From positions 1 through 64,000 of the forward strand of contig NZ_JAUG01000002.1 in assembly GCF_000708285.2 (NCBI RefSeq): DNA of 64,000 nt, given 5' to 3'. Shown here one piece after another: positions 46,257 to 52,450 of this stretch. The translations under genes were made by a program, and so were the position numbers. Positions within the stretch are counted from its first letter, which is position 1; the number at the start of each line of letters is the position of its first letter. This DNA is from Pedobacter borealis DSM 19626. GTDB lineage: Bacteria; Bacteroidota; Bacteroidia; Sphingobacteriales; Sphingobacteriaceae. The notes below the pieces were generated by a model that searched no databases, was not told the DNA's origin, and saw only the letters and a list, made by a program, of their open reading frames with translations.

Positions 46257-46916
46257 ATGAACGAGATCATAGACCAAAACCATTTTATTACACAAAGTGA
46301 AATCAATAAATTTCTATTGGCAACCCTGCTTTGTGGCATAATCGGAGCAGAACGCGAATACAGAAGTAAATCTGCCGGACTCAAAACCATGATGATGATT
46401 GGTTTGGGTGCCACCCTATTTACCATTCTGTCCATCAAAATCGGACCAACCAGTCAAGACCGCATTGCCTCTAACATTGTTACTGGAATCGGTTTTTTAG
46501 GCGCTGGGGTAATTTTCAAGGAAGAAAACCGCGTTAAAGGGCTCACTACTGCCTGTATTATCTGGATTGTTGCTGCAATTGGAATGGCCGTAGGCTCTGG
46601 TTACTACGAACAGGCTATAGGGGTAACCATTGTGGTTTTGTTGGCACTGATTATTTTTCCCTTTTTAGAAGAAATTGGCGATCGTCGTTTTACCAAAAGG
46701 CTTTACCGCATTGTTAAAAAACAGCATACCCATGGCAATTTAGAAAGTTATGAAGAAGTTTTCCGTGAAAGTAAACTCAAACCACAACGAGGGAAACACC
46801 AATTGGTAGATAATATTATCACAGGAAACTGGATTGCTACAGGCACGCCTAAAAATCATCAGAAATTTGTAGAGCGCATGCTTAAGGATGATGAGATTAT
46901 TGAGTTTGATTTTTAA
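46257..46916 (+). CDS. MgtC/SapB-family membrane protein
   Basis: A 219-residue inner-membrane protein with four or five transmembrane segments in the first 145 residues. Conserved MgtC sequences are LCGIIGAEREYRSKSAGLKTMMMIGLGATLF, NIVTGIGFLGAGVIFKE and RVKGLTTACIIWIVAAIGMAVGSGYY. The cytoplasmic C-terminal 70 residues are less conserved. In pathogens MgtC limits ATP synthase and supports Mg-limited growth; in environmental bacteria the role is less clear. It ends four bases before the stop of the AT-rich island on the opposite strand, so it marks one boundary of that island. Confidence 0.94.
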   Translation: MNEIIDQNHFITQSEINKFLLATLLCGIIGAEREYRSKSAGLKTMMMIGLGATLFTILSIKIGPTSQDRIASNIVTGIGFLGAGVIFKEENRVKGLTTACIIWIVAAIGMAVGSGYYEQAIGVTIVVLLALIIFPFLEEIGDRRFTKRLYRIVKKQHTHGNLESYEEVFRESKLKPQRGKHQLVDNIITGNWIATGTPKNHQKFVERMLKDDEIIEFDF

Positions 46917-46920
46917 GGTT

Positions 46921-47118
46921 TTACACCTTCAAGGATAATAAATGATTACCACTTTTCTCACTATAAATCTCTCTTAAATAGCCATCTCGAAAATTTCTAC
47001 TCCAAACTAATTCAGTAACTCTAATAAAATAATTGTACCATTTTCTTTCTCCTAAAATTTCAGGATTAAGTTTTTTCGTGTTTATCGCTTTTAGAACTTT
47101 AGCTTCTAACTTATTCAT
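46921..47118 (-). CDS. Small orphan protein of the restriction-modification-like island
   Basis: A 65-residue basic protein (MNKLEAKVLKAINTKKL, then ERKWYNYFIRVTELVWSRN). It has no signal peptide or transmembrane segment and I do not recognise a family. It begins four bases after the stop of the putative nuclease gene on the same strand, so it is co-transcribed. Its AT content matches the two upstream island genes. It could be a controller or an inhibitor, or a fragment, but nothing in the sequence settles this. Confidence 0.65.
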   Translation of the reverse strand: MNKLEAKVLKAINTKKLNPEILGERKWYNYFIRVTELVWSRNFRDGYLREIYSEKSGNHLLSLKV

Positions 47119-47122
47119 TTCT

Positions 47123-47764
47123 TTAGTTTAAATAATCAAAAAATAAATGCTTTATATTCCTTTGTGAATGACAAGATTCATAAATTCTATGGTTATTAAT
47201 TAACTGTTCTTTAAAACTAATAATTTCAAGATTACTCTTTTGTAATTCAATTTTATTATTGATTTTCAACAATAAATCGTCTAATTTACCATTAACTATG
47301 TAAGCCAACATGCAGCCATTTTTATCTTTAAAATGCCCAGTTAAAAACCTTTCTATTCCTTTTGTTATGTATTCGGTTTGTTGTTGAGATGCGTTAACTT
47401 TTGCTCCCGTTGATTTTCTCCATTCAACTGAAGAAATGTTTTTAGCTTCAACATGATATTCTAAATATTCTAACTGTCCCCATTGATTTTTTTGAAAGAA
47501 AATATCAATCCTGTTTGAGTTCTTCACCTTTTTTATCGCACTGTAAATATCTTTTTCAACCAATGGCACTTCATAGTTAATAATAAAATCACTTTTAAGA
47601 TTCCGAAGATGCTGTACAATGTGAGCAGAAATTGATTCTTCTTCCCATTCTGTCGTAAGTAAGTTTTCTTTAATTACTGAACTAAATGATTGAATCAAAA
47701 GGCCTAAGCATTTTAATTCAAAACTCAGATTCACTTTATTAATTAAATTGATGTTTTTAGCCAT
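47123..47764 (-). CDS. Putative PD-(D/E)xK nuclease partner of the Eco57I-like methylase
   Basis: A 213-residue cytoplasmic protein of unrecognised family. The arrangement of a PD-(D/E)xK nuclease is visible: an acidic helix with Glu41-43 (TTEWEEESISAHIVQHLR), Asp87 in RIDIFF, and 19 residues later the Glu106-Ala-Lys108 triad part in YHVEAKN. Spacing and hydrophobic context fit the restriction-endonuclease-like core, but the assignment rests on these residues only. Its start overlaps the methylase stop by eight bases, so translation is coupled. The pairing suggests the restriction half of a type II-like system. Confidence 0.72.
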   Translation of the reverse strand: MAKNINLINKVNLSFELKCLGLLIQSFSSVIKENLLTTEWEEESISAHIVQHLRNLKSDFIINYEVPLVEKDIYSAIKKVKNSNRIDIFFQKNQWGQLEYLEYHVEAKNISSVEWRKSTGAKVNASQQQTEYITKGIERFLTGHFKDKNGCMLAYIVNGKLDDLLLKINNKIELQKSNLEIISFKEQLINNHRIYESCHSQRNIKHLFFDYLN

Positions 47765-50700
47765 TTCCTTTTGCTATTTCTACTAACAAAGATTTACTAT
47801 CTTCCATAGCAGCAGTTTGACTCCAAAACCTTCTTTGATTTGGCTTTATGATATACACATCGTCTCCATCAAAATAATTTAATTTTTTCTTGAAATAAAG
47901 ATTTTTTCTTTCTTCATTCCAAAGTTTTTTATCTAAAATTTTAAGTTCTTGTCTTATATTTTCTTTTGAGATTACTGTTTCTTTTTGTTCACTACCAAAA
48001 GATAACTTTACCATATATAAAGGGCACTTATTATCTATTAAATAATGCGTTACTGAAACTTTTAAATCTACATCGTCCAACCAATCGTTGAGCTCTTTGG
48101 CTATTCTGTTAATGTAATGATCAATTTTAAAAACTGGTTTTACAGCATCTGAATTTGCTTGTCGTTCAAATAATTCTAAACTGAAATCTAAAGTATCTTG
48201 AATAATAATTTGCTCATCTTCTGAGAGTTTTAAAATATCATTATAAATGATTTGGTCAATTTCTTTCTCTAAGTGTGAAATATCTTGAAATAATTTGTTT
48301 GATTTCTTGATTGAGATTATTTCAGTTAAAATGTCCGAAATTTTTCCATCTTCTTCTTTAAATATAAATGGCAATTCATCAAATTCATCCGAATTAACTT
48401 GATCTCGTTCTATTCCCCAAGACGAAGTAATCATAAATAAGTAATATCTCGAAAATTCAGAATTAATTAAACCAACTATATTTTTCTTGTCCGAAATTTT
48501 TAAATTCTCATTGATAATCATACCTGTAGTGGTACAATATGCATCGTAATCAATATAAGAAGCAACAAGTTCTTTATCTTTTTGAAATCTTTTTAAAATA
48601 ATATATGGCGATTTAAAAAGATTGGCATTAATTTTTCTGTAATATTTGGAATCATTTTTAACAATATTATCTGCATTATTTAAAGTATAGTATCTGCTAA
48701 TTTTTTTTGCATTAATTATTTTTTCTGGCAGAAAATCTGGATGTTCAGAATCGGAATTTAATCCTGTTCTAAACAAAATTTCATTTTTGCTAAAATATTC
48801 TTTTAGACTTATGTACTTTTTATTAATACTTTCAATTAGCTCAAAATCGAAATAACTTCCCCACATTGCGATTTTCCAGATCTTAGATTCTTTCTTCTCA
48901 CACTCAGCTCTAGGCAAATGCTTTTCATCAGAAGGATCAATAACAATTCCTTCTAAAATATCATTTTTAAGGTAAGTCTTAGGAGCATAGTAACTTATAG
49001 TGTCCAGTAAAGTTTTAGGTTTTTCTTTTTGGTAAAAAAGAATGCTTATAGGAACAATTGTTGAGCTAAAAAGTTCTCCCCCAGAGAATTTAGGAGGATT
49101 CCTTAAAATCGAAAAATTATATATTTTTTCTACATAGTTTTCATTGAATAACCAATGTCTAAAATTTTGATAGGTCCCTTCATTATTTGTAAGAATTTTG
49201 GTATTAAAAATTAAAGCAACTTGGCCATTAGGGGCAAACGATATGGCTTTATGTAAGAACGGCAAAACCATGTCTTTAGCAAATTTTTCTTTACTGCAAT
49301 AAGCCCTAATATTTTTCTGAATATTTTCAACATCTTTCTTTTCAGAAAGAAGTTCTCCGAATGGAGGATTTCCGACAATTAAATCAAAATTTCGTAATTC
49401 CTTGATTTCAGACAAATCAGAAATCGTATCTCTTTTAAAAAGATTATTCCCTTGTTCTTTTAAACCTGTGTCTTCGGGGTCATTAACTAAATAAGGGAAT
49501 TGAATAGTTTTGTTCCACCAACCAGTCTTCGGATCAAGATTGTCTAATAAAGCCAAATACAAACTAAAAGCCGCAACCTTTATTGATTTTGAATCAAGTT
49601 CGATCCCAAAAATATTAGCTTTTAAAATATCAACTAAAACATTAAAATTATTTAGTTTTTTATTCTGCTTATTTTCATAGCGCTTGACTAATCTTTTAAA
49701 ACTTTGAACCAAGAAAATTCCCGAGCCACAACTTGGGTCTAAAGTTTTTATATTGTATTCTGACTCCCTATTTTTAACAGGTAGCTTTTCGTTTAAAATT
49801 AGTTCAACCAATGATGGCGGAGTGTAGAAAGTTCCTGTATCTTTTTTCTCTTTCTTGTCTAGTTCTGATAAGAAATTTTCATAGATTTCACTTAATAACT
49901 CGATTCTAATAATACTAAAATCAAATAATTTATCTCTAAATAAAACTGGATTTATCTCATCTATATAACCATCATAAAAGCAGTTCTTAATCAATTCTAA
50001 ATGCTCTAATGTAATATACTCTTTTTCTTTATCTTCAAAGTTGAAAAGACTTCCGTTAAAATCATCTGCTAATTTTTCAAACAAATTATAGGTTGCTTCA
50101 ACGTTGTCTAAAATATCAAAAAAGGAATTTGCATTTGGTAAAAAAGACTGATACAATTCTTGAGAAGTTGCTTTTCTGTCCTCCAAATAAAACAAAAACA
50201 GAGAACGCATAATCAATTTGTGGATGATGAATTTATTTTTTAGTCCTCTCTTATCTAATGCATTTGCAGTTTTAATAAGGCTTTGGATCAGATATTTATC
50301 AACCCTATTTTGAAGTTTAATATTCTTTCTGATTTCGACTGCTTCATTTGAAGACCAGACAAACCCAGTATCGATAGCAATTCTTGAAAATATTATATTT
50401 AATAATTGAAGTTTTTCTTTGTCAGTCTGTTTGCAAGAATAAAGTTCTATATTTTCTAAATTATTTACGATTTCATTTTCTCTAGTTTCTTCATTAAAGC
50501 CAAATGGCTTTTCAGAGCAATTATAAATTCTGATTTCCGTTTTTGTATAAACGTATAAAAAAAGAACTTTTTGAAAATTCCAACAAATTTTATGGATTTC
50601 AGCAATTAATTTTAATATTATAAAATCGAATGAATCAACTTCTTTTAAAAAGATTACTGGTTGATTTTCATTTTCATAAACTTGGACAATACCATATTTT

Positions 50701-50786
50701 TTTTTTTGAAACAAATTGATATCAAACGATTTGCAGTCTTCCGCAAAATCAATAATATCTAAATCGTTTATTACAGAGTGGTCCAT
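47757..50786 (-). CDS. Eco57I-like N6-adenine DNA methylase
   Basis: A 1009-residue DNA methyltransferase. Residues about 1-300 are a divergent helical region including IIHKLIMRSLFLFYLEDR (about 187-204), often found before such methylase domains. Motif X-like TGTFYTPPSLVELIL begins at about 317, motif I is DPSCGSGIFLVQSF (350-363), and the catalytic motif IV is NPPF (473-476), typical of N6-adenine enzymes. The long C-terminal part (600-1009) likely recognises the target sequence, ending with coiled-coil-like helices. Size and layout resemble type IIG enzymes, but no nuclease motif is obvious inside, and a separate PD-(D/E)xK-like gene follows with overlap. It is strongly AT-rich compared with its neighbours, pointing to horizontal acquisition. 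Confidence 0.9.
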   Translation of the reverse strand: MDHSVINDLDIIDFAEDCKSFDINLFQKKKYGIVQVYENENQPVIFLKEVDSFDFIILKLIAEIHKICWNFQKVLFLYVYTKTEIRIYNCSEKPFGFNEETRENEIVNNLENIELYSCKQTDKEKLQLLNIIFSRIAIDTGFVWSSNEAVEIRKNIKLQNRVDKYLIQSLIKTANALDKRGLKNKFIIHKLIMRSLFLFYLEDRKATSQELYQSFLPNANSFFDILDNVEATYNLFEKLADDFNGSLFNFEDKEKEYITLEHLELIKNCFYDGYIDEINPVLFRDKLFDFSIIRIELLSEIYENFLSELDKKEKKDTGTFYTPPSLVELILNEKLPVKNRESEYNIKTLDPSCGSGIFLVQSFKRLVKRYENKQNKKLNNFNVLVDILKANIFGIELDSKSIKVAAFSLYLALLDNLDPKTGWWNKTIQFPYLVNDPEDTGLKEQGNNLFKRDTISDLSEIKELRNFDLIVGNPPFGELLSEKKDVENIQKNIRAYCSKEKFAKDMVLPFLHKAISFAPNGQVALIFNTKILTNNEGTYQNFRHWLFNENYVEKIYNFSILRNPPKFSGGELFSSTIVPISILFYQKEKPKTLLDTISYYAPKTYLKNDILEGIVIDPSDEKHLPRAECEKKESKIWKIAMWGSYFDFELIESINKKYISLKEYFSKNEILFRTGLNSDSEHPDFLPEKIINAKKISRYYTLNNADNIVKNDSKYYRKINANLFKSPYIILKRFQKDKELVASYIDYDAYCTTTGMIINENLKISDKKNIVGLINSEFSRYYLFMITSSWGIERDQVNSDEFDELPFIFKEEDGKISDILTEIISIKKSNKLFQDISHLEKEIDQIIYNDILKLSEDEQIIIQDTLDFSLELFERQANSDAVKPVFKIDHYINRIAKELNDWLDDVDLKVSVTHYLIDNKCPLYMVKLSFGSEQKETVISKENIRQELKILDKKLWNEERKNLYFKKKLNYFDGDDVYIIKPNQRRFWSQTAAMEDSKSLLVEIAKGNG

Positions 50787-50998
50787 TTTTATTTTATAAC
50801 TATATTCAGCTGTTTGATATTTACAGAAACCTTTAGCTTCTAAACACGATAGTAAATTAAACTAATAAATTTATCTTAATAATTGTTACTTAAGTTTCTA
50901 ACAACTAACAAAGATAGCTAAATTACTAACTTTTTTAGCTAAAATTGGCTTTAAAATTTCAGTTTACAAACCTAAGCAAATTCCTCAAAAACTTATCT

Positions 50999-51006
50999 TA
51001 GCTTTG
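50999..51006 (+). promoter_or_regulatory. -7 element TAGCTTTG upstream of sdaA
   Basis: Exact match to TAnnTTTG, ending 16 bases upstream of the ATG. No strong TTTG is visible at the expected -33 distance. The gap 50787-50998 is otherwise empty. Confidence 0.5.
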
Positions 51007-51022
51007 TGTAACTATATTCATA

Positions 51023-52450
51023 ATGATCAAGGAACAGATTTCAGTTTTCGATATTTTTAAAATAGGCATCGGCCCATCCAGTTCACATACCTTAGGCCCA
51101 TGGCGGGCCGCACAACAGTTTACAGCTTCGCTTGCCCAAAACAGTTTGATTGATGAAATTGAGGGCATAAAAATATTGCTTTATGGTTCGCTTGCCAAAA
51201 CAGGTAAAGGCCATGGAACTGATGTAGCTATTCTACTCGGTTTAACAGGAGCTGATCCGGTAACTTTTGATGTAGATGCCGTTACACCAACCTTCGAGCG
51301 CATCCAAAGAGATAAGAAATTAAATCTTGCTGATCATTTAATTCTTGATTTTGATTACGATAACGACCTGCTTTTTCTTTTTGCCGAAAGTTTGCCCTTT
51401 CACCCAAATGCGGTTACTTTTCAGGCATTTTTAAAAGGTGGAAAAGCATTTTCAGAAACCTATTACTCTATTGGTGGCGGTTTTGTGGTAAAAGAAGGCG
51501 AAGACAATAGTAAGAAACCACAGGTTGACCTTCCCTTTCCTGTAGAAAAAGCAAAAGACCTTTTACACTGGTGTTTATCTACGGGTTTAAAGGTGAGCGA
51601 AATCGTAATGGAGAACGAACTGGCCTGGCGCACTGAAGCAGAGACAAAAAAAGGCATCCTGCAGCATTTTGCGGTTATGCGCGATTGTATTTATCGTGGA
51701 TGCCATACCACAGGTTTTTTACCAGGCGGTTTAAATGTGGCGCGAAGGGCATTTCCGCTAAATAAACGATTAATTGATAAAAGTGAGTATTCAGATTATA
51801 ATAGCTGGGTAGAAGCCATTAGAAAAGGCGGAAACGGCTTTAATTATACTTTAGATTGGGTAAGCTGCTTCGCGCTGGCCGTTAATGAAGAAAATGCATC
51901 TTTTGGTCGTGTGGTAACTGCCCCTACCAATGGTGCTGCAGGCGTAATTCCAGCCGTATTACAATATTTTATTACCTTTTGCGATGGTTACAGCGAAGAA
52001 AAAATCATCCAGTTTATTGCCTGTGCTTCAGAAGTAGGCAGTATTTTCAAAAAAGGAGCAACCATATCAGCTGCTATGGGCGGGTGTCAGGCCGAAATTG
52101 GCGTTTCCTCAGCCATGGCTGCAGCAGCACTAACGGAGTGTTTAGGTGGCTCGCAAAGACAGGTTTTAATGGCAGCAGAAATTGCCATGGAACATCACTT
52201 GGGTTTAACCTGCGATCCGATTGGCGGTTTAGTACAGATCCCTTGTATCGAAAGAAACACCATGGGCGCCATTAAAGCCATCACAGCCAGCCAGTTAGCC
52301 TTACAAAGCAATCCTGATAAGGCAAAAGTAAGTTTGGATGCAGTGGTAAATACTATGTGGGAAACCGCCCTCGATATGAATGCCAAATACAAAGAAACAT
52401 CTGACGGAGGGTTGGCAACCAATATTCCAATCAGTTTGCCAGAATGTTAA
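51023..52450 (+). CDS. sdaA: L-serine ammonia-lyase, single-chain iron-sulfur type
   Basis: A 475-residue serine dehydratase that converts L-serine to pyruvate and ammonia. The beta-domain N-terminus has [21 protein letters not shown]. The catalytic alpha domain (about 190-475) carries the cysteines of the oxygen-sensitive 4Fe-4S cluster: [30 protein letters not shown] and [18 protein letters not shown]. Alpha and beta domains are fused in one chain, as in E. coli SdaA. It is the first gene beyond the AT-rich island and shows normal base composition. Confidence 0.96.

Follow-up and report, generated by a model that had tools for sequence, protein, structure and literature searches.

The available part of Loenen 2013 (PMC3874165) describes type IIG restriction enzymes as gamma-class methylases that carry a cleavage domain at the N-terminus. 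A related kind, type IIG-like with the endonuclease on a separate protein, is represented in the accessible portion of Blow 2016 (PMC4752239) by AchA6III, OspHL35III, and MexAMORF1192P; the examples drawn there comprise a PLD fused to a translocase, a GIY-YIG with a translocase, and an HNH with two translocases, and some systems with a separate endonuclease are described as BREX (bacteriophage exclusion)-like. Here we compare with these systems a locus from Pedobacter borealis DSM 19626, located in a stretch of 64,000 nucleotides (nt) of contig NZ_JAUG01000002.1 (positions 1 to 64,000, referred to as the window) and consisting of a methylase gene (M), a small gene for a putative nuclease (N), and an even smaller accessory gene (S). 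A first-pass annotation made from the sequence alone had picked out this locus as an AT-rich island of three tightly packed genes that may form an undescribed defense operon. We propose, with a probability of roughly 0.8, that M and N make up a type IIG-like restriction-modification system that is split over two genes, uses no translocase, and takes its nuclease as a plug-in subunit.

Under this proposal, the target-recognition domain within M would select one DNA sequence, in which M would methylate an adenine and so mark self, while N, a PD-(D/E)XK nuclease without specificity of its own, would dock on a conserved part of M and cut at or near unmethylated sites bound by M. The nuclease motif would have been lost inside M, with N supplying the activity in trans. 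Because specificity would sit only in M, its recognition domain could be swapped without touching N, and a diverged N could in turn be swapped onto the same methylase chassis.

M and N form a coupled gene pair

Using only the C-terminal domain of M as bait, the best 80 of 138 relatives were kept as the locus set. An N open reading frame (ORF) lies directly after M in 77 of these 80 loci, with a spacing of -67 to +4 nt in all 77, and in two more N runs off the contig; N or its start thus follows M in 79 of 80, and the methylase and the separate PD-(D/E)XK gene have been kept as the coupled pair that was suspected at first pass. As a side observation, M is split into two ORFs in L026, L062, and L082, and the split M and N copies reflect either gene decay or faulty assembly. 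The statistics exclude loci in which M or N is truncated or broken and draw on 72 M ORFs of at least 950 amino acids (aa; window included), 76 N of at least 190 aa, and 70 loci with both.

The hosts are mostly Bacteroidota, with four Psychrobacter records and one each from Treponema, Ignavibacteriales, and Kapaibacterium, and a diverged M-N pair resides on a Methylobacterium plasmid, where its N is annotated as a "hypothetical protein". N is sparse: with the P. borealis genome itself counted, it turned up in 5 of 395 genomes searched at the class level and in 7 of 395 at the phylum level. Leave-one-out profiles recovered each of 17 N proteins at E-values of 2e-22 to 3e-65, whereas the strongest match among 254 background ORFs reached 0.0035; L009 and L095 in this set are from the same organism, which was counted twice. 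Judged by sequence, the diverged N proteins belong to one family. One homolog (L032) is found in Flavobacterium psychrophilum DSM 3660; according to the available part of a study of this species (PMC11837570), its restriction systems hinder genetic tools, and several "IIG" enzymes of unknown specificity are listed there under a single-polypeptide definition.

The type IIG nuclease motif is absent from M

M combines gamma-class adenine methylase and recognition domains with about 150 N-terminal and about 130 C-terminal residues of its own. Its Pfam matches to N6_Mtase (8.7e-25) and Eco57I (2.9e-21) agree with the earlier description of a 1009-residue Eco57I-like N6-adenine methylase, and the PADLOC model "REase_MTase_IIG" (PDLC03603) scores it over residues 86-996. 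The AlphaFold model of M, with a predicted local distance difference test (pLDDT) score of 82.7, matches the folds of CamA (Z 27.2), MmeI (24.5), DrdV (22.9), and BrxX (21.8), mostly over residues 160-860. Residues 881-1009 fall outside the span of nearly all of these matches and are a possible docking site for N.

A canonical single-chain type IIG enzyme combines gamma-class N6-adenine methylase motifs with an N-terminal endonuclease bearing a catalytic (D/E)xK on the same chain; M possesses the former and lacks the latter. The motif PD[FYL]...[EQD]xK within the first 170 aa, a pattern that was written after the fused group had been inspected, is present in none of the 72 core M (70 hold the region, L037 and L079 being without it), in none of 13 diverged M with N, and in all 14 fused type IIG controls of the PDLC03631 group from the same phylum. 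At the position two residues before the conserved Lys48 of M, the 70 aligned rows with a letter hold Phe in 66 cases and Leu in four. N is absent downstream of ten of the 14 fused controls, those with 876-3516 nt of downstream sequence; the remaining four (L155, L158, L166, and L168) offer only 213-464 nt, too short to judge. The controls were taken from 30 candidates (L151-L180), eleven of which contain no 500-aa ORF (L152, L163, L169, L172-L177, L179, and L180) and five of which were dropped after visual inspection because they are truncated or differently arranged (L164, L165, L170, L171, and L178); the N-terminus of L170 ends in YWEAK, outside the strict pattern. This distribution of motif and gene favors the first-pass suggestion that the nuclease is a separate coupled gene rather than part of the methylase chain.

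At the places listed for PDLC03603 in 198 Bacteroidota genomes, N adjoins M in 10 out of 10, including a second P. borealis copy on contig C142. The N of L134, L140, and L145 escaped the first profiles; its position and motif gave it away, and the leave-one-out search confirmed it. Since all ten places have N beside M, the "type IIG" profile PDLC03603 finds, in these genomes, one half of a two-gene system.

We stop short of deriving N from a detached type IIG nuclease domain, because profile-profile comparisons were uninformative on this point. N against the fused domain gave an E-value of 0.004 with the E/D/ExK columns in register but a probability of only 8%, and a broader N set gave 0.0094 and 4%; the broad N profile touches fused enzymes at 3e-4 to 0.01, partly beyond the nuclease domain. 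The M N-terminus against the fused nuclease domains yielded 0.1% with the core set and, as an artifact, 99% over 12 columns with the broad set, and N against the M N-terminus likewise yielded 0.1%, with an artifactual 99% over nine columns.

N carries a PD-(D/E)XK signature

Among the 76 N homologs, E42, E65, and E106 are kept in all 76, and D87 and K108 in 74. In the AlphaFold model of N (pLDDT 88.4), D87 lies in a predicted strand at 85-93 and E106-K108 in one at 100-111. N therefore displays the arrangement that defines the PD-(D/E)XK superfamily, an acidic residue followed by D and (D/E)xK on the core beta sheet, with moderate fold support: the best VIA-align match was BamHI (Z 7.5), with OkrAI (6.5), Wolbachia CidB (6.4), and SwaI (6.0) also near the top and MunI at 5.5. 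In sequence and model, the conserved residues and predicted strands are those of the PD-(D/E)XK signature, from which we infer nuclease activity. The PD-(D/E)xK-like residues noted earlier in this 213-residue protein thus proved to be conserved, and its predicted fold is nuclease-like rather than a clear non-nuclease one.

Profile searches were unable to identify a convincing Pfam model for N in 74 family members (a single member reached the best E-value, 0.0057, and two matched PDDEXK_9 at 0.044), and no PADLOC or NCBIfam model matched it at an E-value of 1. A search of PDB sequences with the N profile returned two weak matches only, which were taken as chance. The N alignment found no relative among viral contigs and no match among plasmids and phages at an E-value of 0.01, and M had one plasmid match at 1e-40 and no phage match at 1e-30.

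Recognition domains are replaced while N is retained

The locus has an island-bearing sister (G011 = L023) in the same genus. Between the window and this sister, N is 97% identical and the M recognition domain (651-800) 21%; in 40-residue blocks, M is 80-100% identical in 1-480 and 841-1000, 50-90% in 481-640, and 12-42% in 641-840. Over 2415 pairs from 70 loci, which are not independent of one another, N identity tracks that of the M methyltransferase domain (Spearman 0.76) and not that of the recognition domain (0.14, partial 0.05). Recognition domains are less than 50% identical in 53 of the 85 pairs whose N are at least 80% identical. As in the systems of Blow 2016, a single target-recognition domain appears to serve the whole system, N being indifferent, at the level of sequence, to replacement of the M recognition domain. 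Because the recognition domain is swapped while N stays unchanged, it is most likely M that supplies N with its target.

These swaps also bear on the possibility that M and N are an ordinary type II pair in which N is an independent sequence-specific endonuclease reading the same site as M. Type II systems usually keep M and R in separate genes, and the N model resembles BamHI, MunI, and SwaI. An independent endonuclease should nevertheless not survive recognition swaps, because its sites would lose protection, and this is the situation that N would face wherever it is 80-97% identical beside a replaced recognition domain. The nuclease motif is also missing from M in loci with N and present in M in those without it, and we consider this explanation unlikely.

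N itself appears to move as well. One M clade of 12 loci holds two N types, with an N identity of 0.60 within a type (31 pairs) and 0.27 between types (35 pairs), at equal chassis identities of 0.72 and 0.71. For comparison, the median N identity is 0.48 (range 0.23-0.77) among 1131 other pairs whose chassis identities lie at 0.60-0.75. N thus seems to have been exchanged among chassis, although very fast change of N may also account for this.

Neighboring genes and the relation to BREX

A second alternative is that M is an orphan-like epigenetic methylase or a BREX-like (PglX) one, with N acting as a non-cutting phage-blocking factor or in another role. The fold matches of M to CamA and BrxX and the presence of PglX models among its PADLOC matches speak for this, as does the fact that restriction by M-N is argued from sequence, in which the gene coupling, the absence of the type IIG motif from M, the conserved motif of N, and the recognition-domain swaps can be read directly. 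A BREX system would bring PglX together with PglZ and other Brx proteins, and this arrangement was not found: the neighbors shared across the 80 loci include no Brx proteins (by eye and Pfam), NCBIfam BREX models fall well short of their cut-off (at best 63 bits, where 500 are required), and the sole PglZ match in the P. borealis genome belongs to a 517-aa response-regulator fusion (C2:111696-112280; L189:1219-2772) some 61 kilobases (kb) beyond M. This response regulator is reminiscent of PorX of Bacteroidota rather than of a BREX component. Beyond M and N, no partner is common to the loci except mobile-element genes and, in 7-9 loci, S, and a complete PD-(D/E)XK signature is kept in 74-76 of 76 N members. 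We give this alternative a slim chance.

Neighbors were clustered from 732 ORFs within 5-6 kb of the M-N pairs, with families named by Pfam where tested. No family extends beyond 13 of the 80 loci and the leading ones are not helicases, although a motor encoded far off, or an unrelated one specific to a locus, would escape this clustering. The leaders are genes for conjugation, which Pfam identifies as TraG and TraM (11-13 loci), RadC (9), and a phage-integrase family (8).

Several points weigh against the split system that we propose. One locus (L098) has M without N, and two that are counted among the 77, L080 and L082, have an N that is split into two ORFs. The fold scores of N are modest: a Z of 7.5 is within the range that VIA calls common, the unrelated human Rep15 reaches 5.9, and Foldseek gave MunI as its best match at an E-value of 0.0099, with none below 0.001. 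In two Prevotellaceae bins, N (L100:6157-6855 and L101:8378-9076) has other residues in the columns that align with the catalytic Asp and Lys, and these copies are possibly inactive or misaligned. M residues 1-50 are poorly predicted (block pLDDT 56-69) and the profile comparison offers no usable match, so a decayed nuclease domain in M is argued by position and motif loss. To these may be added the pattern fitted after inspection, the dependence among locus pairs, and the kinds of motor gene that clustering would overlook; catalysis by N, physical contact between M and N, and phage defense are likewise what we infer from the sequences.

S is a dispensable accessory gene

The first-pass annotation treated the 65-residue ORF as an orphan and as an extra small partner in the suspected operon. 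Homologs were found by tblastn at the same position in 9 of 80 loci (54-95% identity), two of them interrupted, one by an in-frame stop and one by a frameshift. S is therefore no orphan, and of the supposed trio the M-N pair holds and the third member does not. The ratio of nonsynonymous to synonymous substitution rates (dN/dS) of about 0.2-0.35 in four pairs points to purifying selection, and S occurs with both N types; the gene is real, but as an accessory that the system can do without. An essential role for S, as controller, inhibitor, or second subunit of a three-gene system, would be consistent with this selection, with its kept position right after N, and with its presence beside both N types, but it was rejected on account of the patchy occurrence of S and its two broken copies, and such a system is very unlikely. 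Least credible is that N is a toxin-like or modification-dependent nuclease merely traveling with M. Weak matches to Ntox47 (E-value 0.11, below cut-off) and CidB speak for this, but N adjoins M in 79 of 80 loci and on the Methylobacterium plasmid, and host DNA would itself come under attack from a nuclease directed at the mark that M sets.

The P. borealis island and mobile context

The positions of the genes, domains, and motifs are collected in Table 1. The M and N ORFs share 8 nt and a gap of 4 nt separates the N and S ORFs, as expected from the overlapping or closely spaced minus-strand genes first annotated. The flanks are likewise those named at first pass (mgtC and sdaA): an MgtC-family gene, which ends at 46916, and, on the other side, a serine dehydratase gene (sdaA) with its start at 51023. 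The AT-richness noted then is pronounced, the guanine plus cytosine (G+C) content of the island being 27.7% against 39.0% in the remaining window and lower than in all 525 same-length windows outside the island (minimum 35.7%).

Table 1. Coordinates of the island genes, of regions within their products, and of a hairpin found in related loci.
Feature	Position	Strand	Description
M	47757..50786	minus	1009 aa; gamma-class N6-adenine methyltransferase with its own target-recognition domain (modification/specificity subunit)
M residues 1-150	50337..50786	minus	Domain where a type IIG nuclease would sit; K48 kept, no (D/E)xK
M residues 291-650	48837..49916	minus	Methyltransferase core with LDPSCGSG (349-356) and NPPF (473-476); from invariant columns, Pfam, and fold
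M residues 651-840	48267..48836	minus	Target-recognition region, replaced among close relatives
M residues 881-1009	47760..48146	minus	Conserved C-terminal domain with (I/V)(K/R)PNQRRFW
N	47123..47764	minus	213 aa; PD-(D/E)XK-fold putative nuclease subunit
N catalytic motif D87...E106-A107-K108	47441..47506	minus	From column counts over 76 homologs
S	46921..47118	minus	65 aa; accessory gene, subclade only
Hairpin copies	L044:7205-7325, L046:8974-9094, L063:7289-7409, L073:8978-9108, L080:8978-9108, L086:3496-3606, L088:8946-9066		Directly after the N stop

To survey empty sites, 60 genomes of the genus were searched with the dehydratase, 58 of which matched, and 30 of the 58 stretches were compared; two of the 30 are the P. 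borealis genome itself and its island-bearing sister. In 22 of the 28 others the MgtC gene lies 19-1122 nt before the dehydratase gene with the island absent, and in six it is absent from the compared stretch. The interval 46917-51022 varies across the genus, being near-empty or occupied by a minus-strand ORF of 163-165 aa (8 of 28 genomes) or by other content. N is present in two of 59 relatives, P. borealis and the sister. Because most compared genomes are without the island and N was found in just these two, the island was probably acquired by insertion at a site that varies in the genus. The second M-N pair of the P. borealis genome is diverged and lies at the end of its contig (C142; L143:3731-6858).

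Elsewhere, conjugation genes surround the pair in L051, L060, L067, L081, L087, L089, L092, L093, L095, L096, L097, and others, apparently as parts of a single conjugative element of flavobacteria. A phage-integrase (tyrosine recombinase) gene is near the pair in L035, L040, L043, L066, L070, L075, L085, and L099, and immediately upstream of M in L070 and L075. The four Psychrobacter copies (L064, L065, L077, and L082) have a nearby 78-aa helix-turn-helix gene, HTH_3 in the one tested, which is possibly a controller gene. In the seven aligned loci of Table 1, a hairpin follows the N stop and shows two-sided compensatory changes in 6 of 18 predicted pairs; extra copies occur in L073 near 4740 (upstream of M) and in L035 near 10740. 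The hairpin may be a site of cassette recombination or act as a regulatory RNA; as an integron-type recombination site it was rejected, no integron boxes being seen by eye.

Comparison with known systems

The literature searched did not yield a description of the M-N pair, although REBASE and the 76-system table of Blow 2016 lie outside that search and may list it. We regard it as rather probable that the pair represents a widespread, unnamed restriction-modification class, motor-free, in which a fixed methylase chassis combines an exchangeable recognition domain with an exchangeable PD-(D/E)XK subunit targeted entirely by the methylase, of which PDLC03603 finds one half in Bacteroidota and which conjugative elements carry in some flavobacteria. 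In the searched Bacteroidota, a family scored as one-chain type IIG turns out to be a two-protein unit whose nuclease has been overlooked. The loci also provide a natural experiment, with target recognition and, apparently, the nuclease each swapped on one chassis, which makes the triggering of a specificity-free nuclease by an unmethylated site directly testable and the pair a candidate modular restriction enzyme.

Like the single-chain type IIG/IIL enzymes Eco57I, MmeI, DrdV, and BpuSI, M joins a gamma-class N6-adenine methylase to a single target-recognition domain; unlike them, it is without an N-terminal catalytic nuclease motif, and the nuclease is a separate small protein. A related methylase fold is shared with BREX PglX (BrxX; Z 21.8) and CamA (Z 27.2). 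CamA is an orphan methylase and BREX includes several further partners, whereas only the M-N pair is widely common here. The PADLOC label of PDLC03603 denotes a restriction enzyme and methyltransferase in one; its strongest matches found here are M proteins with an adjoining N, and N itself is matched by no PADLOC model. Type I systems, as described in PMC3874165, similarly have one specificity component that directs methylation together with a separate nuclease subunit; M differs in carrying its own recognition domain, and no motor or HsdS-type family is common to the neighbors.

The closest likeness in arrangement is to the systems in the accessible portion of Blow 2016, with a methylase/target-recognition protein, an endonuclease on another protein, and a single DNA-recognition module. 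The pair is not identical to any example drawn there (PLD, GIY-YIG, or HNH with translocase), N being a small PD-(D/E)XK protein with no translocase common to its neighbors. Of the suggestion that this is an undescribed defense operon, the part that stands is that no model in the searched family libraries convincingly describes N; the separate-endonuclease kind is known from the available text of Blow 2016, and M scores as "type IIG" in PADLOC. What sets the pair apart from the examples drawn there is a small putative PD-(D/E)XK nuclease with no motor gene beside the pair.

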